A stretch of 64,000 nucleotides of DNA from Tubiluchus corallicola (taxonomy: Eukaryota; Priapulida; Priapulimorpha; Priapulimorphida; Tubiluchidae). Where the stretch lies: contig JAQGDQ010000032.1 of NCBI GenBank assembly GCA_030141605.1, positions 355,501 through 419,500 of the forward strand. Reading direction: 5' to 3'. The notes below the pieces were generated by a model that was not told where the DNA came from, ran no database searches, and worked only from the letters and a program-made list of their open reading frames with translations. How positions within the stretch are numbered: position 1 is the stretch's first letter; every line of letters begins with the position of its first letter. The position numbers and the translations under genes are program-made. This document shows, piece after piece, positions 975 to 56,621 of this stretch.

Positions 975-1056
975 CTAACTGGAATTTGTCTTTCCTATAA
1001 GCTCACTCCCATCATCGCCATGGTTACTAACATTGCTGCTATCAACTGATTCACTG

Positions 1057-4000: not shown

Positions 4001-7000
4001 ATTAATTGAAATCAACAGACTACACCTGTTGGTTTCAACTAATTAAATTTGGGAAGCTTTAGTTTAACTTGTTTATTACAACTTCATAAAATTAAGTGTG
4101 AATTATTTTTTCTATAGTAACCAAAATTTGCTATGTTAAATTTATACTATATTATAAAGCTTTGTATAATTAATTAATTTGTGCTCAGGTCATAAAATCG
4201 AACAGTCATAAGTTGCATAGGTTGTAAGTCAACGATTGCCTGTAATGCAATTCGGATGAAATGATGATTACGATTAATCAAACTCAGTTGAAAATACTTG
4301 AAAATGAAAATTACAAAAGCAAGTGAACTGGGTGCAAGCTAGAGAATCTTTGATTTTGACAAACCCTCACTGAGCCAAAGTATTAAACACTGATGGGAGG
4401 CAATTGAGCTTAGAAAAACATGCGAATGTACATATGAAATATACCCGGTACGAGAATATCTCCAAAACCGAGTAGTGAGTAAGCAATTCCACATATACTC
4501 AATGGACCAGCATTGAGGTGCGGCACTTTTAAAACCATAGGAAGTTGCTCTTTTGATTGACTGCTACCACCAGTTGCCACGTCCACCATAACACTTTCTC
4601 CATTCTAAAAATATGTATTTCAAAAACATAGGTGAGATGAACTACATTGATGTGATAGCCGTTCTGATAGTTGACACACAAATCAAATAATAAGCTTTTG
4701 TTTTCTGAATCCTTGGACATTTGAATTCATTTAAAATTAACTTTCATTTTGACGGAAACTATTACTGAATTTAAGTTCTCCAATGTTTTTCCTGTGCAAA
4801 CAATTTGAATTGGAATAAAAGTAGACGCAGCAACAATACAATATGAAATAGCAAATCAGGAATTATCTGAAACATAAATGCTGAACATAATTGCAAAATG
4901 TGACATGTTGTCAGTTCGAATCTCAAATAACAAATTTCAAAAATCCAGGCATCAGTAATTCAAAGAATTTATAAGTGTGCACATAAGTGAATATTAGATA
5001 AACTAAAATAACTGTGTGTCACTTTCATCATTTAAATATATACTTGCTAACCATAAGATTCTTAATTTATTAACTTTTACATGCAAAGAGACAGGTGGAA
5101 CAAGGTTACAAAAATTTTACAGTGAAAAAGCCAATCCATTGTTTTAAGTTATTGCTTTTCAGTCTTGAACTTTTATTGGGTTACCACAAAGACATAAACA
5201 GACATATATTAACAAACTTATGCTCAAGTTAGGATATTTTGCAAAAACTTTAACTTTTTACAAAGAGCATAAAGGGCACTTCAACCAGTTTTCTAAAATG
5301 AGACGATAAAAATCATCCTACACAATGTGATTCATTTTGTCCTTACACTTTATCCATTGCATAACATAGTCTACTTAATCAACATAATTATAGTAAAATA
5401 AAATATTTAAAATAAATGTCATATTCATTATTGTAAAGTTGCTACTTCTTGTCATGATGCAAATTAGGGAAAGCTGCAGAGTTTCACTCATTGCCATAAA
5501 ATCTCATCATTCACAGTGTATTGTAATAGCAAAATAAAGCAGTTTATTGCGAGAACTTCCAGATCAGGGATACGCCGATATGGCAACTTGTGTTTTAATC
5601 CTCTACCAATTATTTTTACCTATTGCTGTTGGCCGATTTGATCCAATCTCAGATTCGATATCAGGCCCAAGCTGATGTGATGGTATTATAACTGCTGTAA
5701 CAGTAACTGCTGTTTATGTTGTGATTGTGGGAAGTCAAAATAAAATATAATTATAGCATCAGCTTAAAAATAAAATGACTATTGACTTCTTTTACAGTTA
5801 TATATAAGACATTTTTGTCCTTCTGCAAAGTGCTAATCATGTACTAGCTTTGTGTTTATAGATGCTGTTTTATTATTAATACCTTTAGTTTATCTTTGTT
5901 AGGGACAGCTTCACATAATGGCTCAATGATTATTTGCCTATGTTATAGCCTATCTCTATTTTAACTTGAACTAAATTATTAATTAATATAATTTCCCAGT
6001 TTATTCAGATTAATGAATAAAGGGAAAATATTTAGAAACTAATAAATTAATCCTTGATAATCGTTGTTCAATTAGAGTCAAAAAATGCCCATAGGTGGCA
6101 GAATTGACTAATTCAATACTTTAAAAAAAATAGAATTTCAATTGAATCATATAATACTATAAACAATCATGCACCTAGAACAATAAGCGATAATTATATA
6201 CAAATTACCTTTGTAAATAGAGGTGTTATGAAAACGAAGAAAATATCGTACACAAACAGGAGCAATAATAGAATTGTACAAGCCTAAAAAATAAAAAAAT
6301 ACGTGGAATGTCAGTATTAATGGTGATATTAAAGTTTTCTAAGATTGTGGTTCAACAAGGTATTATCTTGCTTTGCATCATACAGTCAAACCTCTTTACA
6401 CCACCAACTTTGGGATTGCAAAAAAAGTTGGCATTATGGCGAGTTTGACATTATAACGAAGTGGATTAATACATACATGTCTATACAAATACAGACACTT
6501 TGATTTGCAAAAAATTTGGTAGTTAAGCAAGGTTGGCGTTACGGGGAGGGGGGGTTATATTGAGGTTTGACTGTACTTACATTTAATTTTCTTATTAAAT
6601 GGTTTTCGTAGACAAAAGTCCATAATTATATTATAGAAAGTGTGTTTTGATCTCACCATTTTAATCCCATAAAATACTTTATCATTTCTGTTAGAACAGA
6701 TTCACAGCACGTAGTAATATTAAAGACCTACTTATATTTACTACACAAGAGGCAATTAGTATAGGTGGAGGCCAACTTATGACCACAATTGGTTCCAACA
6801 GACTGGTCGTAGGGTGAGTTGGACACAAGTGGGGCTTGTATCCTCAAGTGGTGTGTTCCTACATGTCTACACACAGTGTATGGGTGACATCTACTGATGA
6901 ATTTGTTGAAAAAGATAGCAATTTAAAAGGAATTTGTTTTAAAAATATTAGTTATAATTGGTTTTGTATAATTAATTAATCAACTTGTGGTCGGATCGTA

Positions 7001-10000
7001 AAACGGTACAGTCATAAGTCGGCGACTATCTGTACCTTACAATATCTACTTTACCTTAAAACTTGGCATCTTCAACACGACCAACATGTTTATACAAAAT
7101 GCAAAGCCAAGAATATCCTGCAAGATAAAAGCATACCTGAAACAGAAATAAGAAAGCGGTTACCACTTAAAGAATGAATTTGTCTTCGATTTAACATCAA
7201 TGCTTCTCATATCTGTTAGTTCTGTACAAAGATTTCAGATTACACTAATTCACCTTCTCACAAATTTAACAAGCTATTACTGTAATCTCAATGGAGTCAC
7301 ACTACTAATATATAGTTAGTAAAGGTACAATTAAGCAGTTTAAAATTTACAATTAGACTACATACAACTTGAGTATATCAGCAAAAACAGTTAACCAAAA
7401 CAACGGCTTTATGACAAACTTGCAAGAGTACATGTGACAGTCTGAAGTATCACGTAAGCTCATTCCAAACCAAACAGTACCTCCATACCATATTTCAGTC
7501 ACAAGCACCAAACTGCAAACTGCTTCAGAAGTTAAGAAAGGAAGGATAATATCTGAGTGCAATAGTTAGCATGCCTAGGACAAGTGTTTTTCTTTACCTA
7601 CATCGGAAGATACACATTGTTTCAGATTCTGAAAATTCAGACAACTCTTTCTTTCAACAATCGAATCTTTCTTTGGGAGAAATCACAATATTCCAAATTT
7701 TAAGTTCAAGGAGCTTTCATTACATTGCAGTTAAACATGTTTAAAGTGCTAACACAATTTGGCCAAATTAGTAGTCTGTGGAATCAGAACAAGTTCGGAC
7801 TCCGACAAATTTTTACCGTTGTGAAGGCTTACTTTATGTTCAAAAAATGCACAGTGAAATGCCAAATAATAATTTCGCTCTTACATATGAATAGTATGGT
7901 ATTTTTACTACTGTTGGGCACAATTTACTATTTTAAATAAAAAAATTAGATTACCATTTAAATTTTAATAGTTAATTTAAAGTTTTAGTTTTATTTTATT
8001 TGCTTTTCAGCCACTAGATGACAGCACCATGAGGGAAATGACAGCACGCAGAATTGTAGATCAACTGTCACAAACTGCCCAATGCCCACGGATAACATTT
8101 TTCATGTATTACAAGTTAATTTCTTAATTGCATATAAATTTTAATGGAAAATTTACTGTAATACAAAAATAATACAGGCTCTAATTTGTGTCACTTTTTC
8201 AAAATAAATAATAAATAAAATGTGCCCGAGGATGAAATTAAGCTAGGTCAAACCTGGTCAGCAAACAGATGAATGACAGCAGGAAAAACTGTTGCTGTTG
8301 TATTACTAGATGGCTTTTTGCCTTAACAAAGGGAGATGTACACCCACTGGAAAGCAGCTGAGATGACTGTATTGGTTCAGGGCTTCAACTTAGAACATTA
8401 TCTTCGATATAATGAGCTAAATTCCTGTTCTGTGTCACAACCTACATAACGCAGATCTACTTTACATACTCTAAGCTGAAATGTGAACCCCCGTGGAGGC
8501 ATGATAGCCAGTCAGCCACATTCTAATGAGTATGCAAATAGTCAAATGGCAAAATGGCTGAAGCAGTTTTCCACTGAATGGATTCCAGCTTGCAAAGTGC
8601 CAAACTGCATAAAAAAATTCATCGCCAACTTTCCGGGAAAACTTACCACTCATTTCTCTCAATGGCCCACCAGATGGCTAAACCAAGACTTAGGACAGCA
8701 ATCAAGATGTGCTTAGGACTAACAGCTTTGCCACAACATATCATTCTAGAATAAGCAAATTATTGTAAAGCACTGTTACATTATACAGCAATTCAATAAA
8801 AATCTGACTAAATTACTAAAACCTATTTAATTATATTTTTTCAGAGTGAAACTCACATTGCAGAGTGAAACTCATCATAACTGGGGGATAAGTTGTACAA
8901 AACGTACTGTATCTGATGTTTGGATGACTATATTACCAGCTAGAATAATAAGCTATGAACCAAGTGATCAATGTAAGCTTATGAATGCTTTTATAAATTG
9001 TCAGAAAATCGAACTGCTTTACAACTTACTCATTTGGTTTACTATAAAGTAAATGTGTTGTTGTGCAAGATAATTAAAGTAATGTTAACTGCCTTGCAAA
9101 GAACAAAACAATGCGTCAAGTCAAATGGAAATTCAGTTTGTGATAGCTAATTAACTCTGTTTGATGAAATATATAGTGCATATGCAAATAATCATAAAGT
9201 AACGTCAATTTATATATACATATCAAATCAATGCTAAGAAATAAAGGAAAGTCGGTGATGACATAAAACACGATATCTCAAGTTACCTTCTAAAAATTAA
9301 TTAAAAATGTGATTTTTGCAAATGTGACCAATTTGCTATGTGGTTCAAATAAATTAACAACAGAAAAAATATGTAGAAGAATTGCCTCAATCGTCCACAG
9401 ATTTAATTATCACGAAAAGCTTGTCAATAGTCTTACATTCATTACAAACAACAACTAATAAGAAGGCTACACAGAAAAGTCTACTGGAAAAAATAGATGC
9501 AGAATGGATATGCAGCAAATGTCTGTTTGAATTGACTCTTTTTTATTTTGTTATCACGTTTCTAAACACTACATACCTGTTTCGGGCGCACGACGAAAAA
9601 ATTGATAACAGAGCGGTGAGACACTGATAGAGTGAGAAAGCTGATGCCAAACAAAACAAAGCTATGGCAGCAAACACTTGAAAAAAAGAATAAGAAAATG
9701 TTTGTCTTGATAATTAAATATTCATAAATTGTCTTTATAAAAAATGTAACATTTACTAGCAAACTGGGATACTTTTTGCAACATTAAACGTTTGCAAATT
9801 GAGCTTTGAACAACTTGTCACATTTTATTTTGCAACTTGCATACTACTTGTAAAATTGTCTCATGTTGGAATCTTCATTATTTCTCGCTGTGACGTCAAT
9901 CATATGCATTCGAACAAAATTAAATGAATTTTTTCACAAACTAATGCATTCATCGTATCTGACACCTTTGCACAGAATTAATACTTGTCACACATTGGAT

Positions 10001-10422
10001 ATTTTTTAAGATTTCAAACATTGTACGTGAACAAAAAATATATTTTCGAAAAAATACATCAATTAAGCACCTTACCTAAGTAATCATAGAAAAAATACAG
10101 CAGCAATAGCATGGAGCACATCAAAATCACAAAGAACACAATAAACATGGGTGATATGTTGATAGTGTCTTGCTTTTTGCTACTACCTTGCCCAGCTGCA
10201 TCAAGCCTGTCACAAAAATAAGTGTTTAATTTCATAAAGACTTATTGAAGAATACATAAAGGTTAACTCCCGTGACAAATTAAATCAGCACAGGTGGATC
10301 CTTGAGCCAAATGATACAGCCGTGTATAACATATGATATTATTTTAGCACACGAGAGATGCATGACTTCATTTTATATTAAAAAATTTGAATTATTTTGC
10401 TCTATCTATCTATCTATCTATC

Positions 10423-10463
<41 letters not shown>

Positions 10464-13400
10464 TTATTTATTTTAAAAAAGTTAGATTATATTTCTTTTG
10501 TATCTGTATACTTAATTACCCCAACGAATTAAAGCCCAATTACCCAGTATCTTTTAATGCTTTAATACTTTATGTACTGTAGTTTAATGCTCTTCTCATT
10601 TAGTTTTAATGTTTTATCCAGTGCAATTCTTTTGGTGTTTTACACATGTAATGAAAAGGGATATTAAATTTACACCATTCTGCCACTTCTATCTGTATTT
10701 CTAGTCTATTACTCTGACTTTATTCACTCGGAATTTTTCTCGTGGAACAGCATTGTATGAACATCAAGGTGAAATGTACTAAATACACAACACCTGCTTT
10801 TAATAAATATTTTGAAAAAGCAAATATAACTGCTACAAATGAAACAAAATATTAATTTAAAATTAGCCAACCAGTCCACATATGGCATAATATAAGCTAT
10901 TATTATACTTTAACATGCTTACTTGCGCTCAATGTCACTCTCATATCCTGACCAGTAGCTGCCCAAGGTAACACACAGTACTGCCAGTATCCATATGATT
11001 ACAAGACTATAGTCGAGATTCAAAGAATTTTCTTCGGGTGAGTACAGGTAGACATCAATATCGGAGCCTAATTTCTGCAAAGAAAAACACTAGGCATGAT
11101 ACTGCAAATAACAAACAATTTCTTCAAGTTTCTATAAAGTGATTATTGGTATACTACTTTGCAGCAATGGCAGTTTACGGTATTGTAAATGTAAAAAGTA
11201 AAATCGTGTGTGACTGACCTGACATTCAACACACATAATCTGCATACGTTCATAAATATGGCAACTGAACAACTGAAATATTCTGCAACATCAAACACGT
11301 GTATGATGTAATAACCACAAGCTTTAAAGTTTAAAGTCCAAGTATACAAGGCGATTTTGACTGCTTGACAAAATTATTTTGAAACGCGTACTTTTGACTA
11401 ATGTTTTGCTGACAAAATTAGGGAAACATATTTCCAGATTATCCAGTGAGTTTATTCTGAACAGTTAGTTATTTTTTTATTTCGTACAACAACGCACAAT
11501 ACGTTGCAACAGTGTACAACGTATAAAATATATATATATAATTTATCAAGGAACAAAACCAACATACCTGGACTGATTCTGCATCTTCACCAGCAATAAC
11601 AGCCACGATTATGTTAATCTGACTGTATTCGGTACTATTTCCATATGGAGTTACCTACATTGAAATATGCAATTATGCTGTATCACTTACAAAACATATG
11701 GCTACCTAATGGCGCATTTAGACTGGCGAGCTTTCTCTCGCGAGTATTCATTCAGAGAACAGCTTTGGGAGCTGCTAGTTTCTGCAAACTCTCACGCAGT
11801 AGCTGCGAGTTTTCTCTGACAGTAAGAGCGAGTCGACATTTAGCAAAACTCGGGACGGTGCTTACAAAGCCGTTTACGCTTGCAAGTTTACTCTCAGAGA
11901 AAACTCAAGAGAGACTCAAACGTGTCTGAACAAGAGTTTGGAAACGAGTTAGTCCGCAAGTGCATCAATGTGTTAGTCGACTAAAGTTTCTCTGTAACAC
12001 TAACACCTGTATGTCATTTACTTATGAGTTGCCACAATAAAAAAAACAGAAAAACAAATTTCTGGTTTGCCAGCGAGCACAAAAACAATTTCTGATGCTG
12101 ACATTTTTAAACAGTTGCTAGTAAAGTAATATTAAAGATAAGAAAGAAATACGTCTTTATTTCATACATACTTACCACATTTTCTTGACTAACAATGAGA
12201 ACTCCAGAAGCTCCATTTTGTTGTGCAATAAAGGCTTTTTCTGAAAAGGTACAGTTGCCCCTGGCTTCCATAACCACAGACTAGAAAACACAACAGCATT
12301 TAATAATCATAACAGCAATTGGCATTTCAATATGTCAGGACAAAAATGTCAGAGTTAGCAAGTTCTACTTTTTCAGCTTTTTAACTTAGACATGAATCCA
12401 CCCAGTTTTTAAATGTGATATTCTATTAGAAACATGAATAATACGCTACTTAAGTGTTCTAATTCCATTGCTTTCAACTCAAAAATTCTAATTATGTAAA
12501 AAACTGAATTATGAGTGCAGGTTTAATAAAGGCCAAGACTCACTTTTGCTGAATATTTACTGGGTAGAAGAATTTGGGACGCACATTAAGAAGCTGTATA
12601 GTACACACTACACTGTTTTTAGAACTGCATATATATTTGTATTGTTCAAAAAATTTTGCCCTTTTGCTATATACTACTTTTTTATGCATTAATGTGCTGC
12701 ACACTTAACTACGAATTAAAAAGTACAAAAACATTTAATGAACATAACTGTAACAAATTCTGCAGGTGTAAAACACCTTGTGAGGTTAGACTGAATTCAT
12801 AAAAATAATGATCGTGTAATTCTGTCAGAACAACAAAGAGTCAACTGTAGTGTGCGAGTATTAAAAAATAGGAGATATTTTTTCCACGGTAATAAGGAAT
12901 TAATTGAATAATCACTGTATTTAAGTAAGAAATATTTTCTTGATAATTTCTATAATAGAAATGTATCCCTCATGGGCATTTATTGGAGAAATTGCAATTA
13001 CGAAGAGCTGTTCAATTGCACCCACTAACTAATCCATGCAACTATAATAAAAAAGTAAACTTAATTTTTGTGAATTTGAAACTTCAGTTCAAGGACAAAG
13101 ATAAAAAAGATTATAATTATGCACTAAGAAATTTGGCAAAGTCAGAAATAACTTCCTAAAATTCATATAATAGAATAATATAGGTTCTTATATACCTAAA
13201 ATAAAATAAGTTAAATATTAAATTACTTAACCTTACTCAAAGGTGTAACAATTAATTTACCAAAATATTTCTATTCATTTTTATACTTTGTGGACTTTAG
13301 ATGTTACACAAAATAGAGTAAAGACCTTTCAAATACCAATTTTTTTTTTATTAGATTTGGAGAAACGAACTCAAAATTTACAAACATACAACAGCAAAAG

Positions 13401-16130
13401 GTGCTGCATAGAAAAATACTAGCCAAACTAGATCCAACAAAAGTTCAAAGCAATTCTTCATACAACATGCATTTATTCATTAACAGATATAAGAAAATGA
13501 TTTTAAAATGTACATTCAATACATTCAATTCTCAATTCTCTAATTTGAGCACAGTGGAGTAGTTAAGGGGGCAGTCCGCCATGGATGACACCTTTCAGAG
13601 GGCGGCACTTTGATAAAGTGCACTGAAAAAGCTGATTCTGTAGGAACAGTAAAAAAGGCGTTACAAAACTTATATAGTGCGTGTACAGTAGACAAATATT
13701 GTTGACTAATTAGCTCATCAATAATTGTTGCATAATTTGTCTATCATAATTGATGCGTCTATTGTTGTAGTCATTATGACATTTGAATTTTCATTGTTTT
13801 AGGAATAGTGCGAGTTTGCAGATGGCGGTATTTAATTTTCTTAACAGTAATTTAACAAACATTTAAATGTTATCGCCTATACCTATATAGTGCTTTTAAA
13901 CGTGCTGGGACAAGAATTTATTTATTCACAAACAAATCTTTTTAATAGCACTTTATTATTTCATCAAATTACCTCTACAAGATACTGTAATTGCAACACA
14001 ATACTACTAAATTTTACAAATCTAATATCTCAAGGATGTAGGTCTGTTGTCAATACAGAATGATTGACTAAAATTTAAATGTACATAACACAGAAAATCA
14101 GTGAAAGCAAGCATGCTGATTTTATGCTATTTGTCAATTTCAGTTATCTTAACAAGTGTACTGTTTTTTAGTATTTATTCAACATTGACAGAGTTCCCAA
14201 ACATTGTTAATCTAGTTCATAAGAAAAGGAGAAGCCTAGGTGGTAGATGCAGGACTGAGGTTTTCTAACCATAAAAGCTACCATAACCACCATAACTGCC
14301 ATATCCACCATAGCCTCTTCCATAGCCTCCATACAAGCTACCATAACCTCCGTAGCCTCTACCATAGCCTCCATAGCCTCCATATAAGCTTCCATAGCCT
14401 CTACCATAGCCTCCATAGCCTCTACCATAGCCTCCATACAAGCTTCCATAGCCTCTACCGTAGCCTCCATAGCCTCTACCGTAGCCTCCATAGCCTCTAC
14501 CATAGCCTCCATAGCCGCTACCATAACCACCATAACCACCATATGAACTTCCGTAGCCTCTACCATAGCCTCCATATCCTCCATAGCCTCCATAACCACC
14601 TAAACCTCCATATCCCCCAAAACCTCCATAACTGCTATATCCCCATGAGTATGTTACAGCTAGTATCTGAAAGCAAAAACAATAGTAACTTAAAAACTAA
14701 TTAAGTATTATGGTAGATGTTAAATAATACAGGTTTACTACTTTCATTCATTTCTAAGTGAAAAATAATAGAACAATGGTTATAGACATCTTTCTTATCA
14801 TCATACATGTGCTTCACCCTACTAAGGGCTTCACTGGGGACCGTAAACCAAATCAAACATAATATTATTCACTAAAACACAGTTATACAGAAGTTACACA
14901 GGTTATGCATTGAGTATGAGATATAAACATTTCAAAAAACTTAACAGAATTCTCTACATTTGTGCCAAAAGTGGAATAAAAACACAGAATTTGATGGCAA
15001 GCCATAGTTTGCTATATGCAGGCCTGATGTAGGCACTAGATAAAAAACCAACCCTACCAACACAAACTATAAGTCTGTTTATGCCCATGTACCGGAAGGA
15101 AGGTACCATCTATACTAAACCCTTCAAAAGGTTATAGTAGGTAAACTCATTTCTAGAGTTTGAACCAGGTGAATGCCTTTCAATAAATATAGTTTCCAAA
15201 CACTCTTAAATTCTAGCTTCCAAAATGTAGGAGTATTCAGGTAAGTTTTTTGAAATGTTCATAACCGATACTCAATGCATAAGCTGTGTAGTTTCTCTAT
15301 AACTGTGTTTTGGTGAATAACGTTATGTTTAATTTGGTTAAAATCCCTGGGGAAGGGAAAGCACGTGTACAACGATATCTATTAAATGAGACCGCACTAG
15401 TTGCTGCATTAGTAACCAGACTGCAAATGACAAAATGTGGCTGCACTGCAGTTTGCAATAGGTGGTGGTCATTGCAAAAGTATCACTTGCAAGTTCAAAA
15501 ATGAAATAAAATTTGTTCATAAAGACAGTGTTTTCTAAAAAGTTGATTCCAGACATAAAGCTGCAGGTCTTAATTTAGCACCTTAATTTAAATCAAAATG
15601 TGTGTATTCAACCCAGGGTTCGTTATAGGATTAGCAATTTTTATTGTCAAACATTCGTGCCAAACAGAAATCTTGTTGTTTCACTGTCATTCCATTTTTG
15701 TTGACAATTTTTGATGAATCTATTGTAAGTATGATAAGATGCAGGATTGCTATAAATAAGCCATTTTAAGCTGCAGCTATGAAGGCACAGATTCGAAAGT
15801 TCCGAGAGGATTGCTTCCAGATGCTCAATGAAAATCACAATTTTATTAATCACATTAGGTGTATTAATAAAAGCATCAAACAAAAATATTCCTCGAATTT
15901 TAGTTGAATTTTTCTACGATATGTTTGTTGGCAAGCACCCTTACGAAAGTTCTAAATATGTTATCATCAACACGTCCTTAATAAGTCATAAATCTTGCAA
16001 GTATAACTCTTTGACTTTATCCTCCAGGCAAATCCAGCTGTTCAACTAAAATAAATTTTCTGAATTTTTCATGACAAATTAAAATGCAAATTTCACTTGC
16101 AAATACTGTCTTGCCTAAAAAGTATATAAA

Positions 16131-16167
<37 letters not shown>

Positions 16168-19100
16168 TGTGTTTGATTACATGCTATGCTTGCACTTTTA
16201 GCCAAGTGTTGATTTTGGTGAATGGTTGAAGATATGAAGATATATTGCATACTGTGAATTAATAAATTCTACGTAAAAAGTTACATCTGTATAATTATGT
16301 TCACTGTCTATCAGTTGCAATCAATATTTGATACTTTCCTAAACCTTTTAGATTAAAAACATCAAATGTTCCTTTGAAGAAGAGCACATAATTATTTGAA
16401 ATACAATGAAACTGTATCTCATGCATTAACAGAATACCACATTTCTTATCTTCTAAAACAATTTTCCAATTTTAGCTTAGCATTTTACATTTGTTCTCAC
16501 TAAGGATCTCGCTAAGAATTTATCAACTAAAAACATGTTCTAACAAAACTGCCGTTACAGTAAATAAACATAAACCAGTCTACTACATAAAAATTATTTT
16601 ATACACTACACAATTTTCTAATTCTCCCTTCAGGTTTATTCATAAACTTGATTCTTTCCTCAAGCAATTTACGGAAACAGATTAAATCGTGCAAGGGCAG
16701 TGAAAAACAGTTAAATATTTTATAAACGTCAAAATATGTTAAGACTTTACACTTACAGATGCAAGAACTAACAACATGAAAACGAATTTGGACTCCATTT
16801 TAAATTCTAAGCACACTCTTTCAGTCCTGTAAAAATGTAATGAAACATGTTCACACATATTACTTCTACTACTATTACTGTAAAATTACTTGCAGTAAAA
16901 ATGTTTCTGGTAAATGCCTTTGGGAGAAAAGCAGTACTTATTTAACTCTTAGTACTTTACAGAAGCACAAGATAGAGCAAAAATATCACTGAAGGAAATG
17001 CTTCAAAAACAGTTTATTGGAGTAGCAAAAAGTGAAGAATTAATAAGTGCGTTAAACAGAAAATTAATACTTAAATATACTAATTAATAATTAATTTTAT
17101 GAAATCAAGAACTAAAAATGCAAATAAGAATATAATTTATAATAACTTAGAATATAATAACTCAGAATGTGAATTTAGAAGTAAGAATTGTACAAACATT
17201 AAACAACATGAGCATGTGATTGTGATAAAAAAAATTACAAAAAACAACAATACAAAAAACTGAATTATGAAATCGGACGTTACACTTAGTAGTTTGTACA
17301 GAACTGAAATTGAAAATTAATGAAAATACGTTACAAAAAGTTTGAAAGACTTGAATATAAAACGAACAAAAATTGAAATTCTCACCTAGGTTAGATGATC
17401 AAAAAAGTAGCTGTGCTTTGACCACTGCTATAGTCTAGAACTTTCTAGTCTAGAAATAACATCCAGGACAGGATGGTTTTTATAGCATAATTAATGCAGT
17501 ATGCTGATGCATGACAAAATATAGGAGCTCCGCCGAATTTCAATTTCCCTGCCGCATGTTACATGAAAGAATCACATGTCCTTGATACCAGTCAAATGTC
17601 ATAAATTATTATTTGATAGCGTGACCCTAGGGCTAACTGTCTATCAAAAAATGCTATCTATTTAAAGATTAGCCTTGACCAAAATGTACAGGTAATGTAT
17701 AATATCGTACGATTTTGAACCAGCATTCATGATTAAACTTGTTCTAAGCTCAGAGTTAACTATTCTAAAAAACAAATGTGTGGGACAGGATGTAATGTTT
17801 GCATACTATCGAATTATAAGCTGTACTGTTGAAAGTGAAGGCTAGCTGAGTTTCACGTTTTGCCAGTTTGCTTTCACATATATAATCAGACATACAAAAC
17901 TGCTTATTAATTATTTACCTTACAAAGGACAAAACCAAATCAAAATCAGTACTTAGCAAAGAATTCAAGCTGACACTAGGATAACACAATTAACTCTTAA
18001 TGATAAGAATAGTGACAATTGAATTAAAAAAATCTTACAATTACAAAACAAGAAAAAAGGAGACAGAGAAGATGTTTCAAAGAACCACTGTACTTTATCT
18101 TTTCTCTTCCACGTGAAGATAAAGCACAATGGTATGTTGAAATGTTGTGTCTTTTCTTTCTTGTTTTTAATTGTGAAATTTTTTAAATCACTGACGACAG
18201 AAATTTTGCTAAATTGTTCGACACAGTGTAACGCATAAAACTGTGCACATATTAAATAATCATCATATTAGTAGTGGGACGGGCCAGAGTAAAAAAAAAA
18301 TCAAATGTTAATTTCATCAGCTGCTCTGTAGCGCATCACCAGGATGTACATGTGTGTGTACGCAATACAGATATGTGCAATTGCAGTCTCTGGCTTGTAA
18401 GTGATAGTATGATGAAAACGTGAGAAGAAAATGTTAGAAACTAACTGTCACAAAAGAAACATAACCAGTTCTACCACTATTGCCAAGCCACATTAAAATC
18501 AGTGACACACCAAGGTATAGCCTGAAGCACTGTAGTTATCACTATCAAATCTTTTCCAGGAAAATACTAGGCTATACGGATTTTTACAGCTATTCTTTCA
18601 CAGATATAAACCAAACCCGAAACTAATAAAGGAATTAAATTTTGCGTGTATTTTTATAAAGTTCGGTACACTGCAAGCTGGAATCCAGCATTCAATGGCA
18701 GGGCCTACTCAAAGACGTTTGTGGTGAAACTTGCGGTTGGCTCATTATAATCTCATGTTAAGTTAACAAGATATTCATTAGAAACAGGAATTAAAAAACT
18801 TTAGATGCAAATTATTAATTCTAGTGCTACAACTGGAAGAGAGAAGGACCTGAGTATAAATGTCATGTTCATGCAATTTACCAACCTTAGCAAAGTACAG
18901 GGCTTAGTGAATATTTCATTATCACCTAGACAACTACTACCATCACTGAAATATTAAGTTAGCTCAGAAGCCCAATAATTGACATTTTTTTTCAATAAAT
19001 AATAAGCACAAAAGTTGCTTGAATGATCTGAAAAATGCTCTGACAAAACACACATCTTTTTAGAGACTGTTGGCAGTCTTACTTTCTAACTGTGGCCCTT

Positions 19101-22100
19101 ACTTCGAACACTCATCTTTGGCTTTGTTGATGTGGCATTGGGGGTTTACATGTTAGACAATCTTCCCTGTTAGGTGACGAGAGAGTACCAAACTAAAAAT
19201 GTGAGCAATATGGTCTTACCTAAAGAAGAAAAGAAGAAATCAAACAATAATTATAATTCAGACTTGTTTATTTCAAATTTACAAATCACAAGTATTATAT
19301 ATTAACAGAAATATACTAAGTATTATGTAATTAACAGTTACTTTACAGAATAACACATATACAACTATACAAGTATTTGCAATTATTAATCAGTTAAACA
19401 TCAGTTTATAGCATGCTTTAGTTTACCTTTATGTAAAAAAAACTTTAGGTAATCATCAAGAAATCACATTGAAACTTTGGCAGAAAGGAAGTGCTACAAA
19501 TAAAGCTAGAATTCCATGCAAATCCCTTTACTCCATTTGCCACTATGACATTCCATTTTTAGAACTTTTTCTAACTTACTAAGGCACTGCAACTCGGTTG
19601 CTTACTCTGAAGCCCTGAATTCATACAATTCTTAACGTAAGAAAACAAGAAACGTACGATAAATTGGATGAACTCAACAAAGATAATGTGATAAAGACAG
19701 TTAATTGAAGCAAATTTCAAAAGGCACTTACACAAATATATAAAATGCTAATTATTTTCACCAGATTAAAGCCTTTAGAACAAACAGCCCATTTACAAAA
19801 AAAATTATACCTGCATACAATACAATTAAAATATTTGTTAATTTTAACAACTTTTGGGGGACATTCCCAGAAGTTCTCTATTACCAAAAATAATCATGTT
19901 AATCACAAAGTGCGTAACGCTAAAACCAAAATACCATGTTATTCTCGTCTGCAAATATAATGGCAGTATAGAGTCAAAAATGCCTTGTAAACATAAATAA
20001 AAAAATTATCATCTCGCTATCGTTATGTACTATAAAGAAGTACTTCTAAGTAAACATTTATTATTAACTTAATTATTAAATTTGTTTTTGATTCTTTTCA
20101 GTACCAAATATGAAGATATTACATGCCTCTTGCATTAAGTGAACTGATTCCTTCACGATATTCTTGATGATCCAAATGACATTCCATTGGCTACTGTTTT
20201 ACCTTTTCAAATCACAAAAACTGAGCTACGCAAAATTACACATATACATGTTTAAGTCCTGACTGTTTCACACATTTTGGCGCTTCTAACCAAAAAAGCT
20301 TGAGCCACCATAACCGCCACCATAACTACTTCCATAGCCACCACCTGAACCGTAACCACCACCAAAACCACCCGAGCCGTAACCACCACCAAAACCACGC
20401 GAGCTGTAACCACCGCCATAACCACCCGAGCTGTATCCACCACCATATCCACCAAAACCTCTTCCACCATAACCACCTAATCCACCATAACCCCCATAAC
20501 CGCCTAAGCCGCCATAACTGCCTGAGCCACCATAGCCTCTTCCAAAACCACCATATCCACCACCGTAGCTTCGTCCATATCCACCAAATCCACCATAGCC
20601 ACTTCCATAACCTCCATATCCTCTTCCGTATCCACCATATCCACCAGAGCCTCTTCCATATCCTCCATAGCCCCGACCATAACCTCCATATCCTCCCCCA
20701 TATCCGCCAGAGCGTCTTCCATATCCACCACGACTACTAATGCCATAATTGTAAGGATATCCCCATATAGACGAACCATAACCACGGTAAGCACTTCCAT
20801 AGCCACCATATCTGTCATAGCCACCATAACCGCCTGCATCACCGTATCGTACATTGCCAACATTGTTGAAAAGAGGAGCCCAAAACTGAGCCCTATAGGA
20901 ATAGGTCATAGCAAGAACCTGCAAAAATATCAATAGTGAGTTGTATAGCCCTAATTCATTTCACCCTAGCTTTTTAATTCATTTTTACTTTATTGCACTT
21001 TACCTATGTTATACCATAGTAATTCTTTGGTAGCCGATTATTAACGAATATTATGGATTGTTGTCAAATGTGACATTGACTGTCATTTTCTGAAAGCGAT
21101 GCCTATGAACCAGTTGTATAACACTCTATATAATAATCTATTGTTGAAGAACATTTATTGGCTACTCAAACAATGCAAAGATAGGTGAAGAAGGTGCTCA
21201 CAGTAGTTGTAAAGGAAATACAGTAAGTCGTCACTTAACGATTCCCCGTTTACTAACATTTTGTTTGACCACCTTTTTCTCACTTAACAACTCATGTTTC
21301 GTTTTAACGACAATTTTTTTGGTTTGTTCATAACCATTTTTCATTTTATCAATAATTTTTTTACCTAATACGAAACATTAAGACAGTATAATTACACTGC
21401 ATTATTCTACTGTAAAAGTGACTAGTAATATAAAACTGTACAATTATTACGTTTTTGTTTCTCGACGGATTACCATATGTAGCCATTTGTATCAAGCGAG
21501 ATCGGTATGCAATTTATATGCTTCCAGGCAAACTTTATGGGAAAGAATTTTGCCTGCAACCTGTTGCGATAGCAATCAGACTGAGTATTTGGACGAAAAT
21601 GTCCCAAGGTCGCCCTGGGGCTTGGCTTTCAATATGCAGTATTTAACTGCTAGTTGACTAGGGTTTCAAGGTTAACTAAAGAGACACCATTAGTTAGATA
21701 TTGGTAAGAAAGATAGGTAGTTTCAAGCAAGCAGAATATTTATCAGTAGAAATGTAAATAAAACTCATAAACATTTAATTTATATGATTAAACAGCACTG
21801 ATTTGGAATGTATCTCTATTCTTTTACAATACTTTTTAAGGAAGTCTAGGCTTTGTTTAACAATGTTTCGCTTACCGTCACGTTTAGCAAGGAACACATT
21901 AAACATCGTTAAGCAAGGACTTATTGTACACAATGGAACTGGTGAATTATAATATAACCCCACATCTCAAAAGGTAGACTACTAAATGCCACGGGTAAAA
22001 GTGGATCATGTTACTGCAAAATGTACTTAGAATTCCCATGACAGCTAAGTAGTTTTAATGCCTCCATTGCTACCTATAAATGCAATTATGGGGAATAGTC

Positions 22101-24619
22101 ATAAAGTGTATACTTTAGCATACTTAGCATACATAATTATACTATAGTTTAAGAAGATGCAAAATGGTCTGAGAGCATGCCAGCGTTGCCAACATTTATT
22201 ACCCTCCCTAAATACACTGGCATAATAATAATGATAGTGCAAGACCTTGAAATGCAATACGGGCTGATATGGCAAAATTCATCACATATGAGTCTTGTTA
22301 TGGGTTACTGTATATATTATAAGCTTGCATATTGGCACAATGAAACAAGACATGCCTTGAGGTCTCTCCAAAGAACAGAAAATAACATAGTGGCACCAGG
22401 CACAATGAATTATAAGTAGCAATTATATACTGCACTTATATGTGTTTAAATGTAATTACATATGGAAAATGTCTGATCTGGAAAGCAAACATTATGACTA
22501 AATCAGTAATTTTTTTACTGCTAATATGTCACTGTAGTAAAAGATGTACCAAAGTAACTAGCAAAAAATGATATTTATGTATTGGCGTACCACTGGTCAT
22601 GGAATGTTAATTAATGCTTACCGAGGCAAGAACCAGTAGAACAGGCCCGAGTTTACGAGACATAGTGATGTTCAAGTCCTGTAAAAATGAATGATTATAT
22701 TCTAATAGTGGTGTATCAAAAAATCTTATAATTTTGTAAATATATAATAGGCATCATGCACTAACTCCTTTTTTTCAAGAGAAATACCAACAGAAAAAAT
22801 TAAATAAGCAAACAAATAATAAAAACAAAAAATAAATAAATAATTTACCATACGAGTGAATGTTGGAATAAATTGATGAATGAATGAACAAACAAGTGAA
22901 TGAATAAATAAATACAATGACCAAATCAACGAATATGAGTACCTAAATAAAATGCAAACAAATGAATTTTAAACAAGAAGCTAAATACAACTAAAAACTA
23001 ATAATCATTTTTTTAAAAAAATAGGCAGTAAAATTGAATTACAAATGCAAAGTCGCTAAACATAAAAATTCCAAACATTTTCATTTATATACATTAATAC
23101 TTTAATACCTTCAAAAAATACTTACCTATAAGGTGATTAGATCAGCAAAAACGTAGCAAACTAGTCACTTCGACTGTTCTAGAAGCAGCTAATAAAAACA
23201 CGCCCACGAATAGAATGCTTTTATAGCTTCATTAACGTCGAACGCTGAAGCATGACAAGTAAAATTTCATACAGGGATACACCAGAGTCATCACAATCAT
23301 TGCATTATATTATCCTTCACTGAATAATCACTGCACTATTAAAAGCAGCAGCAGCCAATGGCAAATCACCTCATCAGGTTTTTACTATTCGCTCAATGTT
23401 TTGGTCACTGAAAAGGTCAACTATTCATTCATACTTTCTAAACAATTCATGCTAGAACCTTTGACCTTTGAACTACAAAACTGCCAGAATAATAATTGAC
23501 ATGCCACTAAAATTATGTAGAACTTCAAATTTCCACTACTAACTCTGTTTACTTCTTATTATGTCCATGCAAAAGAAACTTTTTCAAGAATTGGAATTTT
23601 ATTTAGACTTAGCATGTTAATGAGTTACTGTATGTTTTGCATAGCAATTATCAAAAACATATTTATGAATCAACATGGTTCCTTGAACAGAAATGATAGC
23701 TTTTGCCATAATACTAAAAGTATGTTAATTATGAAAAAATTACAGTTTAATAAGGCTCATACCTGTCAAGTGCATTAAAATTCAAGAACGCATTTCTCTT
23801 TGCCAAGGGCAGGGTATGTAAGGTTGCAACTTTCAAAACTGATTGCTAATATCGAGAATGTATTAATGTTACCCCATAAGCTGCCATGATGTAAATAATA
23901 TAATTTGCACTAAACATCAACTCATTATGAGCAATGGGTAAAGTTACTATGCTTGCTATGTGCATTAAACGAAACAACTATCATAAAAATATGGTGATAT
24001 CATGACGGAATCTCTACAATGTACCACAGCAATTAAAAAACAATTTACTATCATAAGTGCTCAGAATACATTTGAACATTGTAAAACTGATCAGAAACAT
24101 TTATTGGTAACTTGATTATTAGTAAATGAATGATCAACCAAAAACGACTTCGGAATTCTTAGCAAGTCTAGCTGTTATTCTAAACAAATACATAATACAA
24201 GAATAACTAACATTCACATACCTGGTGGTAATCAATTGTTTCATTTCTGCATCCATCAGAAGGCAAAATATCAGTTAATTTGAACGGAGCCTGAAATATA
24301 CCAGAAATCATTTAGTTATAAAGCTTAGCAAGTGTTTTATTTTCATCCACTCCAAGCAAGCTGTTAGGCACTCAAAATCAAAAAAGAAGTTCGGTATAAA
24401 AAACTCTGCCCCTCTCATGTTGCCTGTTTGCTGATCACAAGCTCGTGCTTGGCCAAAGAAAATGGCACAACTGGCTCAAAACTTTTGGGATGAATCCAGT
24501 ATACAGGCTTTACTGCTAAGCAATAGTGTTACTGCACTTACAGACTCCAAAGCACAAGTTCAGAATCATAGTCATTGATATTATTCGAATAAGATGATAA
24601 TAATAATAATAATAATAAT

Positions 24620-24713
<94 letters not shown>

Positions 24714-27700
24714 GAGCCCGTATAAAGTGACCATTTAAATTCCGTGGAGTATTATTAATCTACACATACTCCATTGCTCAGTTAGAATTGAGAAGCAGTT
24801 CCAGAGGGGTCCAGACCCCTCCATTTGATACGAAAAATTTAAGTATAACGGGCATTCCGTTTGCCAAGTAAAGCTCTGAAATTGAACTTCATACTGCAAC
24901 CCTGAATTAAAGCTTTGCGAAATGAGGAGGCCTGTGTACTTGATCGGCCACTGGCATTGTCTGACAACATTACTCTCTATGTGATTGTAGTGTAGCTCAA
25001 TGTACGAAAATATCGTTACGAAGCGGAGGCGGAGGCGGAGTTAGAGTGCTATTAGGAAATGATTCATGATCCGGCCCATGCAAGGATTCATAACTGCCAT
25101 CAGTGTGCTTATTTCCTGCTATAATTAGCATTCCTGATCTACCTAGACGTTTGCTGGAAGCAACCGACTGTTAGTAATTAAACAATCTTCTTTAGATGTA
25201 TATAATATGCTGCTGGTTCAGCTGTGTTTGTAGATAAGGTTTTTAACAAATCGATGCCTTGAAATTGACAAAACTGCTAAATTTGTAATACCAGTAATTA
25301 TCATAATTACTATTTAGTGCACTTAGACAGAAATTGTACTCTTCATTGCAGAAACCTTATTTGAAAGCATAGGTTTTTACACAGGTATTTTTACATAGGT
25401 ATATATATATATATATACAAAGTATCTTACAGTCAAAGTAATGGGTAATGAAATGGCATAGCACGATCTTTTACAGTGTACGTTAATTTTCATCAATAAA
25501 TTAGTTAAGGAATGCACTTACAGACTACAGACTGTTAAGTTAAAGGCAATAATATGTAATTATTGTGATAACATACTAACAAGGCTAGCATGGTATTACA
25601 ATAGGCTAAACCAAGAAACCTCAAAAGGATTCAAAAGCTTGAACTAATGTCATCCTGTTGTCTCATATACATGTGCATACTAAGAATCATACTAATTTTC
25701 CAAATAATGCTTTAGTAATCTAAGTCAAGCGTTAGCAAATGAGATCTGATTTCAGATTTTTGCCTAAAATAAGTGAGTATATTTGTGATGTAGTTTTTGG
25801 TTGAAGACTCAGTCCAAATTGCTACTCATCTAGATGCTGTTATTGCTCGTCTTATTGAGAAGATGACATTTAAAAAAGTATCAGGCATTACGAATTTGCA
25901 ATGGATTATCATGAAACTTCACAAGGATATATACTGGAACAAATTCTGCACCAATTGAGAATCCAATGTATTAAAGATGGCATTAAATGACATCATTTTC
26001 GTATCATAAATACTAGATCGAATTTCGCATCAACAGATGGAGTTGGATTTTCGATCGAATGCATTGAATTCAAGATGGCAGCAATAATATCATTTTCATA
26101 TCATGAATACTAGATCAAATTTCGCATCAACTGACTGATTTGGACTTTTGATCCACACATCTTGAATTCAAGATACAGCATTGACAACTTTTCTAAAAAA
26201 TATAAGAACCTAAGCCTAAACCTGCGAATAAATACATACTAAAATAAATTCAGTATCTATTGAGGAAAACACATTTTTGGTTCACCAACTTGTAGTGAGA
26301 ACAAGGCCAATAGTTTGAGTCAAACTTATTCGTGCAGCTCAGCACTCTACAAGCTAGGATTCAACACTCAATGATGGGGTGACTCGGGCCTACTTGATAT
26401 ACATCCCTAGATTCTCTAAGATGAAACACTAAACCAGCAGAAATATTCTTTTTCAAGTTTTCATGCCAATAGCTAGTTAATTGGAGTTTTATGTGTCACC
26501 AGGCCCAAAGAGAGGGGAGTGCAGCCAGTACATTGCTCTGGGGTTCCATGAAGTCTGGGGGCCCACAAATATTAAATTTTGTACGTTGACAAAGACCAGT
26601 ATTCGTGTCAATCAGACACCTTACAGATGCATATTCTTTTTACAATACCTGCTACTGCTGCCTATGTAGAGTGCTCATTCAGCAAACTAAAACAGATTGA
26701 AAATTTCGTTAGATCCAGAATCACACAGGGATGGCTAGTAGACCCAGCAACATTGAGTACTGAAGCTGAACTTGCAAGAAAAGTCAATTTTGATGGAGCT
26801 ATTCATTGTTTTGTAAGGAAAAAGCCCAAACAGCCCCTTTATTTAGCAGAAAATGAATTGGGATGTATTATGGTTCACTGTGAATAAACATAATTCAGTT
26901 ATTAAGGAATAAAGACTATTGAACATAAATAATTGCATTATATTTTATAGTCTTCATGCACTTGTACAGGGGAGGGGGCCCAAAATTTGTCTTGGCTTGG
27001 CACGTAAAAATTCTTTCAGCTGCCTGTGCATCATAACTAAACATAACATGACTTGCAGGAGAGCCTCAGGCAAACAAGCGAACACTGCAGTGCTAGAAGC
27101 CTGTTCCAAATTCCAGAGGCGGATTTAGGATTTTTAAAAGGGAGGGGTCCAAATGTGATCAAGCAAAAAGGCGGATGTGGGGCCCGGGGATGCCAGGGAT
27201 AGCCTCCCCTGTCGCTCAGGTAGGAAGTGGGTGACATGGATTTCCCTTCATTTTAGCCCATTTTGAGCCTTCTAACAAGTACTTGCTGATTAAACTTCAG
27301 AAATTTTTTGGACATTTGTGTTTGAGTTTATAGTTCTAATAACAGTAACTGCTACTACCTTGTATAACAAATAAGAATAAATGGCATAAAAATTCTTAAT
27401 TCTTACAAACCAATGCCTTTTTATTGCCTTAAGACTATCGCCTTGTAGTTTCTGCACTATCACTGTCATTTGCTTTCTTGTCAGATGTCATTTCAGGTTA
27501 ATTTTACTAACCCACAAGTTCTAATTAAGCACCTTGTTGATAGCCAAAATTACATTTACTGCTTATATTATTTATCGAATGAATAATCCAGGTGTTTTTA
27601 AATGTACATGGTTTCTGTACATGGTTACATTCTTGTAAAAACCTATGCTTTCAAATAAGGTTTCTGCAATGCAGAGTACAATTTCTGTCTAAGTGCACTA

Positions 27701-30700
27701 AATAGTAATTATTATAATTACTGGTATTACGAATTTAGCAGTTTTGTCAATTTCAAGGCATCAATTTGTTAACAACCTTATCTACAAACACAGCTGAACC
27801 AGCAGCATATTATATACAGCTAAAGAAGATTGTTTTTAAACTAATTAAAATTATTAACAGTCGGTTGCTTCCAGCAAACGTCTAGGTAGATCAGGAATGC
27901 TAATTATAGCAGGAAATAAGCACACTGACGGCAGTTATGAATCCTTGCATGGGCGGGATCATGAATCATTTCCTAATAGCACTCTTACTCCGCCTCCGCT
28001 GTGTAACGATATTTTCGTACATTGAGCTACACTACAATCACATAGAGAGTAATGTTGTCAGACAATGCCAATGGCCGATCAGGTTCACAGGCCTCCTCAT
28101 TTCGCAAAGCCATAATTCAGGGTTGCAGTATTAAGTTCAATTTCAGAGCTTTACTTGGCAAACGGAATGCCCGTTATACTTAAATTTTTCGTATCAAAGG
28201 CAGGGGTCCGGACCCCCTCTGGAACTGCTTCTCAATTCTAACTGAGCAATGGAGTATGTGTAGATTAATAATACTGCACGGAATTTAAATGGTCACATTA
28301 TAGGGGCTCATATAATAATCATGAACACATGACCATATGATCGGTAAAAACTGCTGTCTGGATCCGGTCCTGGTCCAATGAGAAACATCTGGTATTTACC
28401 ATATTTTGACTGTACAAGAAATCCAGATAGATACAGAGCCCTTCTTTGTGTCACAATGGATAGAATAACCAGTGGCTACTAGCTAAATATTATTTTTTGT
28501 TACATTAAAGTTTGCAGGTTTGGGTATTTAGCTGGTCTGTGCATTACAACTTTCAATATCTGGCACCTTTGTAGAATCTTTAATATAAAATAGTTTTAGT
28601 TCTTGAACAGTGATATATTATATGAGTACATTACATCTATTGCTGTAAAACTTTGCTGCGTATCAGAACTAATGCATTGTTGATATAAGGGTTTTCCATA
28701 TTATTGCTGAAAATAATAATGTTCAGCAAGATTGTAAGTTAACTTCAAGAAACTGTTTATCAAGTAAAAACTTAGTGTAATGTACGTATTTTAACGTACT
28801 TTAGTAACTTAACTCATAATAAATTTATTCTTCCGATTACATTATTAGATAATTTAACATAATTTTGCTTATTTATGCTGGCCCGCACCCTAACAGAAGA
28901 TAAAATTACTCCGTGAACAGAATTTGAAAGTCATCCAACGTCAAAGTTCTTGGCTTCACTGGTCTAAATAAATGAATAATTTCATAAGTTTTCAAAAATC
29001 TTACAAATGCTTAAATTTCTGTTAATGTATATAACGTCATGTTTAAAATTTCAAATACCTTTTGAGAAAATGGCAAAGGACGATATCTAGGATTATATGC
29101 AATGCAGTAACTCTGTGATGAATGCGACTCACTTGAAGTTGCATTTAATATTCCCAGTTCACCATGCACCTAAAATAAGCACATAATTGTTGCAGTAATT
29201 GCAGAGTTATTATGATAACTGTGATAAAGAAAACAAAACAAAAGATATCTTAAAAAGTTGGTAGACTTTTAATCAAGATAAAAAGATCAAAATGATTTAA
29301 AAACTTGACAAAGATCGCTTTCACTATAATCGTACTGGTCACAGCACGTCGCTACCAAAATGCAGGTGGTCATCAGTTGTTACCATGCTTCAACAGATTT
29401 TCATGCCTAAGGAACATGGTAATAGCTGATAATTGCTCAATTGTTTGACTTTCTGTGATCTCGTGTGGCTTTCACGTATGGCGCACATTCACATCTTCAA
29501 CATTGATCAAATATATCAACTTTAATCAAATATATTATTGGCTATATATTACTGATACATACTAACTATACTGCACATTGTGCTTAAATGGCCGATCTTG
29601 CAACAATAAAACTGAACAACCCATGAAGTGCTGATTTTCAAGAGTAAGTACTATGTAACTATAAAACATCCACGTGAAAGGTGGAAGCAACGAAATTAAG
29701 AATTTCATTGTTACTTAATATTTACAATGCACAATTCTGTGCATATTTACAATGTGCTATAATTAGATAAACAAGGATAAGTCATTTAACACATTGGGCT
29801 TATTTTGCTGTTATCACTTAAACATAGAAAATATAACAAAGAAATTTCCAAAAAAAAAGCATAAAGTTAATTTATAGTAATGCTGTATATAAATTTTCAG
29901 GTGCGGTGCATGCCGCTATTCACTTGAAAATTATCACATAACTGGTGGACTTTGTAAGCACATCACGGTCTTCCGTAAGCGACTATTGTTTAAACTAATT
30001 CAAACTTCTGCAGCTTACCTATCTTCAGGCAAAAATTGGGTATCTAATTTTCTGTACAAACTTATAATACTTTTGACAGAAATTGACAGTTTGTTGCTTT
30101 TCGTCAGCCGGCGAATGACGTCACTAGTGGAAAAATGAGCGTTCAAAATAGAAGCACCCAAGTGTGATTAAATTTATCACACTTTTTTTACTAAATCCTT
30201 GTAACATTTTGCATGAACATTGTAATAAATCTAACTTCCCAATCTTTAGGACTTGGCCTTTCCTTTAATGACATATAAGTTTCATTTCAATATGGCGAAT
30301 TTTTGACTTCTCTCAAAGCAGTTTTTCATTTCACTAATTTTTACTTAATTTGAAGAAATAAAGATTATAATTATTATTGGTATAATAACCATCGGCGGAT
30401 TATGATTTTATGGGCCTTAGGCTTGAGCTTGGAACGGGCCTTTTAAATGTTGCTACACTGGTGAGCTGACGTGTTTTCGTGGAGCTCTCGTCGTTTGGAA
30501 GTTTGTTTAATTTTGTGAGTTTTTGCCCACCGATTGTGATAAAAATTATATCTTCTTGATCCTTGAGTTGTGGAGTAGGACTAAACCCGATTAAAAATAT
30601 AGTGACTGACTTTTGAAAAAAAACTTTTTTCTATATTTTATTTTAGGGCCCCTTGCTCTTTTGTCAATTTATTTTTTTTTACAAAAAATTTTTTTTTTCG

Positions 30701-31360
30701 TTTTATTTTGCCGGGCCCCTTTTGATCCCGGGCCTTAGGCTTCAGCCTATTCAGCCTATAGGGCTATCCGCTACAGATAATAACTGTTGTAATCGCGAAA
30801 CGATTGAGTTGTTAAACCTGTAGAATGTATATTTTACAAAATAACTAATAAACCAAAATGAAAATGCCTTACATAATTACAATAAATATATATACCGTAT
30901 TTTCCCGTGTATAAGAGACCCTTTTTTGCTCAGAATTTTCACTTTAAAAACAGGGGGTCTCTTATACATGGGAGTAAGACTTTTCAATAAGATGCATAAA
31001 TTGTGACACTAATGATATTAAAGAAATAAGTGCTCTACAAGTGCCTCAAGGCATGGAATGGTGTAAAGCCAGAGGTCATTATTAAATCTTTCAAGAAGTG
31101 TGGCATCTCCAATGCCATGGACGGCACAGAGGACAATGCCATTTTTGAGCAGAGTGACTCCTCTGATGATGAACTGGCTGGAATTGCTGAAGGTCTGACT
31201 CCAGTTGATATTTTTGATGAGAGTGATGAGGAATTTAATGATTTCTATGATGAATAAAGTTATTCATTACCAAAAAACTTTTTCCCAGAATTTTTGCCTA
31301 AAAATTGAAGGGGTCTCTTATACACAAGGGTCTCTTATACACGGGAAAATACGGTATATT

Positions 31361-55500: not shown

Positions 55501-56621
55501 CGTATTTCATACCATCGTCATTTACCATGTACACGTCTAAAATTGCTGAGTCTAAATGTCATATTCTAAGTTAATAAAAGTATTTGTTTTGAACATTTTC
55601 TTACCTTTATCAACATGCACTTCCAATATTTTTCGCTCCCTGACAACTTTTTTAGCATTGCAAGTTTTGCAACGATCCTTAGGACTGATCCGTTCTCCTT
55701 GGCCTTGACATTCGGTGCACATAGACTGAATCTGTTGCACCATACCAGGAGCTAGCTGCTGTATGCGGACTTGCATACCGGTTCCCTTGCAATTTGAACA
55801 CTTTTCAACTGCTCCCTTTTTGCCACCACGGCCTAAATATTGATAGTAATCACTCCATTAAACACATGACAATGATGTGAACACGATTTTGTTCTGTTAT
55901 GGGCTAGATGAATAGAAACACCTGTTTAGTGAATTTGGTCACCAGGATCAATACTCTTGGCAGTAGTGTTTCATATTTAACCATTGTCCTTCACGAGATT
56001 GGTTCCAATCACAATTATCTACATGTACGTTGAACAGACCTGGGCCAAGCCATCCTAACTACACGGTGCTGAATTATAAAAAAGACGAGCTCTACATTCA
56101 TGCATCAGATATAGGTGCTCTATTAAACACTTCAAATCTTTACAGGAATTTTGAAATTAACCTAACAATGATAACGCTAAATACTCAACCCACTGTTATT
56201 TGCCAAAATGCAGAGTTGCAGAACAAGATGAGCAACATTCACAAAGCCAACTAAGTCAAAAGCATAAAAATGATGCTGGTACCTTCACATTTGTCACAGA
56301 TAACATTTTTCTGCAGAGCAAGCTTACGCACACTTCCATTGTAGAGATCCTTTAATGAAATCGGAAGTTGGTGAACAACATCTTTTCCTCTTCTTTCTCT
56401 CCTACGGCCACCGCCTCCAAAAAACATGTCAAAAATATCCATAGGCGAGCTGTAAAGGAAAGCAAACAATAAGTGCTCTGAAAAATTATGTAAACAGTTT
56501 CATTGTTCAACTTCAAGTAAAGTAAGCTTCAAACCCACAATACTGTACTTATGTAACAAGATTTATCAAAATCACGAGACAGCAGTTTATCTACAAATTA
56601 CCATCAAAACTTACTTATGTA

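Follow-up and report, generated by a model that had tools for sequence, protein, structure and literature searches.

Nested genes, nesting on the strand of the host, tandem duplicates and secreted proteins rich in glycine (Gly) and tyrosine (Tyr) are each already known. H13, for example, is the gene for signal peptide peptidase, to which the protease SPPL2 is related. In the mouse, the fourth intron of H13 contains Mcts2 on the host strand, and transcription of this guest causes intronic polyadenylation of H13 (PMC13309782). Human nested genes are mainly accompanied by exonization upstream (PMC3192792). The 64,000-nucleotide (nt) stretch of DNA analyzed here (the window) contains an SPPL2 gene that resembles H13 in holding a same-strand nested promoter in an early intron. 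Its two guests, designated genes A and B, are quite probably paralogous, independently transcribed genes for secreted, silk-like structural proteins rich in Gly and Tyr, arranged in tandem on the host strand in SPPL2 intron 3. Whereas Mcts2 is one retrogene whose CpG-island promoter is imprinted, the guests of SPPL2 are two multi-exon TATA genes, and the nested genes of the two loci are unrelated. The sequence itself shows which gene is the host and which intron is occupied, and it also shows the models of A and B and their common origin. No description of a Gly/Tyr pair in an SPPL2 intron was found in the open-licence literature among the matches listed.

The shematrins of Pinctada possess a basic C-terminal motif of the RKKKY type. 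Such a basic C-terminus is missing in both A (which ends in YGGSSFFG) and B (GGYGSFYG). Silk-like structural proteins, and in particular the shematrin-like shell proteins of bivalves (PMC9210306, PMC4660305 and PMC4944945), are like A and B in their probable signal peptide, Gly-rich Tyr repeats, basic charge and tandem repetition; this is a likeness of described features. The shematrin-like mantle proteins of Dreissena carry G(n)Y repeat arrays; like the Pinctada proteins they are basic, and no alignment between the two sets is possible (PMC9210306). The nlp-29 cluster of Caenorhabditis elegans has Gly/Tyr repeats and local duplicates in common with A and B, and one of its members, the antimicrobial peptide NLP-31, has a repeat text nearly that of A and B (PMC9658076). 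However, NLP-31 is far shorter, homology with A and B is not demonstrated, and nesting in a host gene is not mentioned in the available portions of PMC2453101 and PMC9658076.

The host lies on the minus strand and comprises 14 exons (numbered 2-15, 29169..975) with GT-AG borders, which when joined give a continuous frame of 1551 nt closing with a stop. This spliced frame contains FVYDIFF, GFGDI and GQPALL, corresponding to the catalytic motifs YD, GxGD and PAL of GxGD intramembrane proteases. In Pfam, it matches Peptidase_A22B (E 1.4e-82) and, at the N-terminus, the PA domain (E 1.4e-9), while the sole PDB sequence at E up to 1e-3 was SPPL2A (9k92; E 8.2e-118, query residues 10-469). By these matches the host is SPPL2, a GxGD intramembrane protease with a PA domain, and the host gene together with its introns suggests that the DNA of the window is from an animal; a bivalve mollusc would be no more than a guess, prompted by the Gly/Tyr likeness and the GC content. 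Intron 3 (12281..24221, minus strand) is a phase-0 intron following exon 3 (24222..24290), and its 11,941 bp compare with 399-4768 bp for the 12 other introns measured.

The original prediction placed two complete same-strand genes between SPPL2 exons 3 and 4, and this is borne out by the spliced host frame and by both gene models, each of three exons on the minus strand. Its span, 14265..23258, also agrees, running from the stop of gene B to the point at which the conserved promoter block of gene A begins. Gene A encodes 224 residues (ATG at 22663, stop at 20286). A promoter block (23219-23258) that includes TATAAAA at 23225-23219 precedes a probably non-coding exon 1 (23126-23194; donor TAG/GTAAGT), the upstream end of which, as in gene B, is the transcript start predicted from the TATA box (TATA +31). 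Exon 2 (22622-22678) consists of 15 nt of 5' untranslated region and 14 codons (MSRKLGPVLLVLAS) ahead of a phase-0 donor, and exon 3 (20286-20918) carries the remainder of the signal peptide, the Gly/Tyr repeat domain and the stop. The likely polyadenylation (poly(A)) signal, AATAAA, is at 19267-19272, an earlier candidate starting at 20062. Gene B, which encodes 147 residues (ATG at 16798, stop at 14265), repeats this plan: a promoter block aligning with that of gene A (17478-17517, with TATAAAA at 17484-17478), a probably non-coding exon 1 (17386-17453; donor TAG/GTGAGA), an exon 2 (16757-16826) of 28 nt of 5' untranslated region and 14 codons (MESKFVFMLLVLAS) with a phase-0 donor, an exon 3 (14265-14666) with the rest of the signal peptide, the repeat domain and the stop, and a likely AATAAA at 14174-14179. 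Both poly(A) signals were chosen by location among the 30 hexamers of intron 3, and their use is a prediction. From this promoter-to-poly(A) anatomy, it is likely that A and B have their own transcription inside the intron.

In both genes the 14 codons of exon 2 close in LLVLAS, and a phase-0 intron then splits the probable signal peptide. The parallel anatomy that had been claimed for the pair (a TATA box, a non-coding first exon, a 14-codon exon ending LLVLAS, an intron at the same codon and a single Gly/Tyr exon) thus stands in outline, exon 1 being probably non-coding, with two amendments: the signal-peptide-like stretch continues for about 7 codons into exon 3 (VLAMTYS in A, ILAVTYS in B), and exon 2 also holds 5' untranslated sequence. 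The second intron of gene B harbors an inverted repeat with 109-nt arms (14846-14954 and 15231-15339; 86% complementary, 276 nt apart) that looks like a palindromic miniature inverted-repeat transposable element. In that of gene A, a segment at 21230-21925 was seen by eye to have matching inverted ends of about 24 nt and may represent a DNA transposon some 700 bp long; the inverted-repeat search, with its 24-nt minimum, did not list it.

Since repeat exons may look alike through composition alone, evidence for common ancestry was sought outside the repeats. The two genes share a 40-bp block that closes with TATAAAA and aligns without gaps at 80% identity (23258-23219 versus 17517-17478), and the 181-nt stretches covering promoter and exon 1 align with a score of 40, compared to a maximum of 35 among 3,952 random window pairs of equal length. 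For the exon-2 region, the score of A versus B was attained by 1 of 3,957 random pairs. A 21-bp block in exon 1 gives the weakest support among the three, its score being attained by 11 of 4,955. The signal peptides are identical at 13 of 21 residues. With the repeat exons and the two conserved blocks (promoter and exon 2) set aside, a comparison of introns and flanks (24220-19200 versus 18500-13900, blastn at word size 7, best 30 rows) gave nothing below E 0.24, and because the introns no longer align, the duplication is old. The same strand, the three-exon plan, the phase-0 intron, the shared promoter block and the related signal peptides together argue for tandem duplication, as originally proposed. 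It is therefore well supported that A and B are old tandem duplicates that have retained their promoter, exon plan and probable secretion signal. No third copy turned up in the window with promoter, exon-2, signal-peptide or protein A queries (among the matches listed), and in a six-frame scan of all 64 kb, covering stop-to-stop frames of at least 80 residues, only the A and B frames have an 80-residue stretch with at least 25% Gly.

The hydrophobic N-termini suggest that both proteins probably have a signal peptide and are secreted. After a putative cut at residue 21, protein A would comprise 203 residues with 48.3% Gly, 19.2% Tyr and an isoelectric point of 9.59, and protein B 126 residues with 52.4% Gly, 27.8% Tyr and an isoelectric point of 9.4; neither would contain cysteine or lysine. 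PMC4944945 characterizes a silk-like structural protein by a signal peptide (according to SignalP), a domain of at least 25% Gly (in an 80-residue window of its pipeline) and the lack of a transmembrane domain according to TMHMM. Across 80-residue windows, Gly amounts to 33.75-60% in A and 51.25-56.25% in B, which lies above the Gly level in that definition. Genes A and B thus most likely encode silk-like matrix proteins of secretory cells, to judge from their predicted products.

Several points weigh against this assignment. Pfam, at E up to 1, holds no family for either protein, and PDB, searched at the same limit with protein B alone, gave no match. A composition of Gly and Tyr arises repeatedly and by itself fixes no function. 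In favor of the assignment, each coding sequence was compared with itself at fixed codon lags (21 computed, 7 of them reported), and the third codon position differed most at 6 of the 7 reported lags of A; for B the figure was again 6 of 7, with one further lag tied. This would be expected if the protein sequence has been kept. Synonymous differences among repeats outnumbered other codon differences by 743 to 201 (A) and 793 to 235 (B), but this analysis is descriptive: its counts preselect windows in which 6 or more of 7 residues agree, and the repeats are not independent. An alternative is that A and B encode antimicrobial or epidermal defence peptides akin to the nlp-29 cluster, whose products are Gly/Tyr-rich, locally duplicated and induced by infection. 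The repeat text of A and B is very close to that of NLP-31, with its 53% Gly and 26% Tyr (PMC9658076), and fungal infection induces the nlp-29 cluster, itself a product of local duplication (PMC2453101). The likeness to NLP-31 is nevertheless one of composition, homology beyond it not being shown, and the 203 and 126 residues that follow the putative signal peptides compare with the 53 letters given for NLP-31 in PMC9658076. A TATA box and a non-coding exon would be compatible with either role. A defence function consequently seems unlikely, and a structural secreted protein is preferred because of the length and the Tyr-rich, cysteine-free composition. It is also conceivable that the pair is a silent or decaying relic, retained only through its intronic location. 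The introns and flanks of A and B, which outside the named blocks have no similarity above chance, and the inverted repeat with 109-nt arms within gene B could be read in this manner, but both frames, all splice sites, the TATA boxes and the promoter block have stayed intact despite a divergence that erased the similarity of the introns, making a relic extremely unlikely.

A further possibility is that the nested exons partly serve as alternative exons of SPPL2, through splicing of SPPL2 exon 3 to a Gly/Tyr exon or of a Gly/Tyr signal exon to SPPL2 exon 4. Phase 0 is shared by host exon 3 and the coding junctions of A and B, although this is weak evidence because phase 0 is common. Of seven chimeric joins that were read (six with SPPL2 and one from A to B), six remain open as far as they were followed, five of those with SPPL2; the join of SPPL2 exon 3 to B exon 2 runs into a stop. 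Splice sites were ranked with matrices trained without the tested host site, with only 12 donors or 13 acceptors behind them. By one such matrix, the 645 AG sites of intron 3 include two nested exon-3 acceptors, at rank 5 for gene B and 14 for gene A, that surpass host exon 4 at 20, a result slightly in favor of chimeras; the exon-2 acceptors score lower, at rank 51 for B and 64 for A. Each nested gene, moreover, has a promoter-like block and a start codon that belong to it, and the join of SPPL2 exons 3 and 4 yields a normal PA domain. Alternative SPPL2 exons are therefore a highly improbable account of the pair, and independently transcribed structural-protein genes are preferred here too.

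The donor of host exon 3 ranks first of the 787 GT sites of intron 3; by the energy of pairing with U1 (A exon 1, -10.2; B exon 1, -9.5; A exon 2, -8.2; host exon 3, -8.0; B exon 2, -5.1) three of the four nested donors at least equal it. An apparent superiority of the host splice sites over all nested ones was present with host sites in the training set and gone once they were left out, so that the comparison gives the host no clear edge. Retention of intron 3 past host exon 3 would add four residues (VCEC) before a stop. Between host exon 3 and gene A, poly(A) hexamers are not enriched (3 in 996 bp, versus 30 in the 11,941-bp intron and 171 in 64,000 nt on the same strand), and low CpG as a mark of a methylated host body gave no consistent pattern (A gene, 0.63; B gene, 0.37; 3' part of the host, 0.53). 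Given the high rank of the nested exon-3 acceptors and the open chimeric joins, SPPL2-A/B chimeras or termination in intron 3 are possible, in line with the interference at H13/Mcts2.

A plausible course of events would begin with the common TATA promoter and the block just upstream of it activating A and B in a gland or secretory epithelium. Their products would be secreted once the signal peptide of about 21 residues is lost, and the basic, cysteine-free Gly/Tyr chains could then assemble into an extracellular material, perhaps via tyrosine cross-links. In other cells, the nested promoters would be silent and intron 3 removed whole, whereas strong firing of these promoters would probably lower SPPL2 output past exon 3 by transcriptional interference. 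By analogy, a host-guest trade-off like that at other nested loci would be expected, with separation by cell type as the main way out. A more ambitious scheme would make the pair a cell-type switch on SPPL2, such that firing of the Gly/Tyr promoters in secreting cells causes SPPL2 to stop in intron 3 or to splice in frame into the Gly/Tyr exons, and the protease gives way to a soluble fragment with the PA domain or to a secreted fusion of SPPL2 with Gly/Tyr sequence; we regard such a switch as decidedly doubtful.

The remaining host exons, identified from the spliced frame, splice sites, Pfam and PDB, all lie on the minus strand: exon 2 (29059-29169), exons 4-9 (12280-12176, 11654-11568, 11074-10923, 10206-10076, 9676-9577 and 8745-8647) and exons 10-15 (7136-7055, 6283-6209, 4604-4445, 3823-3746, 2212-2058 and 1121-975). 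Their numbering presupposes one single exon upstream of 29169, and the signal-peptide exon 1 was not located in the sequence upstream of that position when read by eye. Intron 2 of SPPL2 holds an inverted pair of about 680 bp (24709-25381 and 27634-28314; 93.6% identity over 687 aligned positions), probably either the two arms of one mobile element or an inverted duplication of recent date, and a frame between the arms (26576-26887) appears hAT-like by eye but found no match in Pfam. Elsewhere in the window, short inverted ends flank an apparent pogo-type transposase tail at 30900-31360 (by eye), a retroelement fragment with an RNase H domain occupies 31708-33087 (Pfam RNase_H 7.9e-9 for 32146-32556), and a second, similar fragment was seen by eye at 58611-59286. 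A 529-residue FGGY carbohydrate kinase, glycerol-kinase-like, is encoded in one uninterrupted frame at 49472-51061 (Pfam FGGY_N 4.7e-44, FGGY_C 6.7e-30) and is possibly an intronless retrocopy, while pieces of a DnaJ gene are found on the minus strand at 54740-55857 (DnaJ_C 2.7e-18, DnaJ_CXXCXGXG 3.2e-14).

The likely products of A and B belong to a class of proteins that evolves repeatedly for the making of extracellular materials. Same-strand nesting is a test of how a long pre-mRNA disregards an intron of its own that carries promoters, splice sites and poly(A) signals, all of them complete. With two tandem secretory genes, probably tissue-specific, in a protease gene, interference would become measurable within one animal, by comparing secreting and non-secreting cells. 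If the switch described above were true, the locus would join H13/Mcts2 as a second example, of independent origin, in which nesting on the same strand cuts off a host of the signal-peptide-peptidase family.

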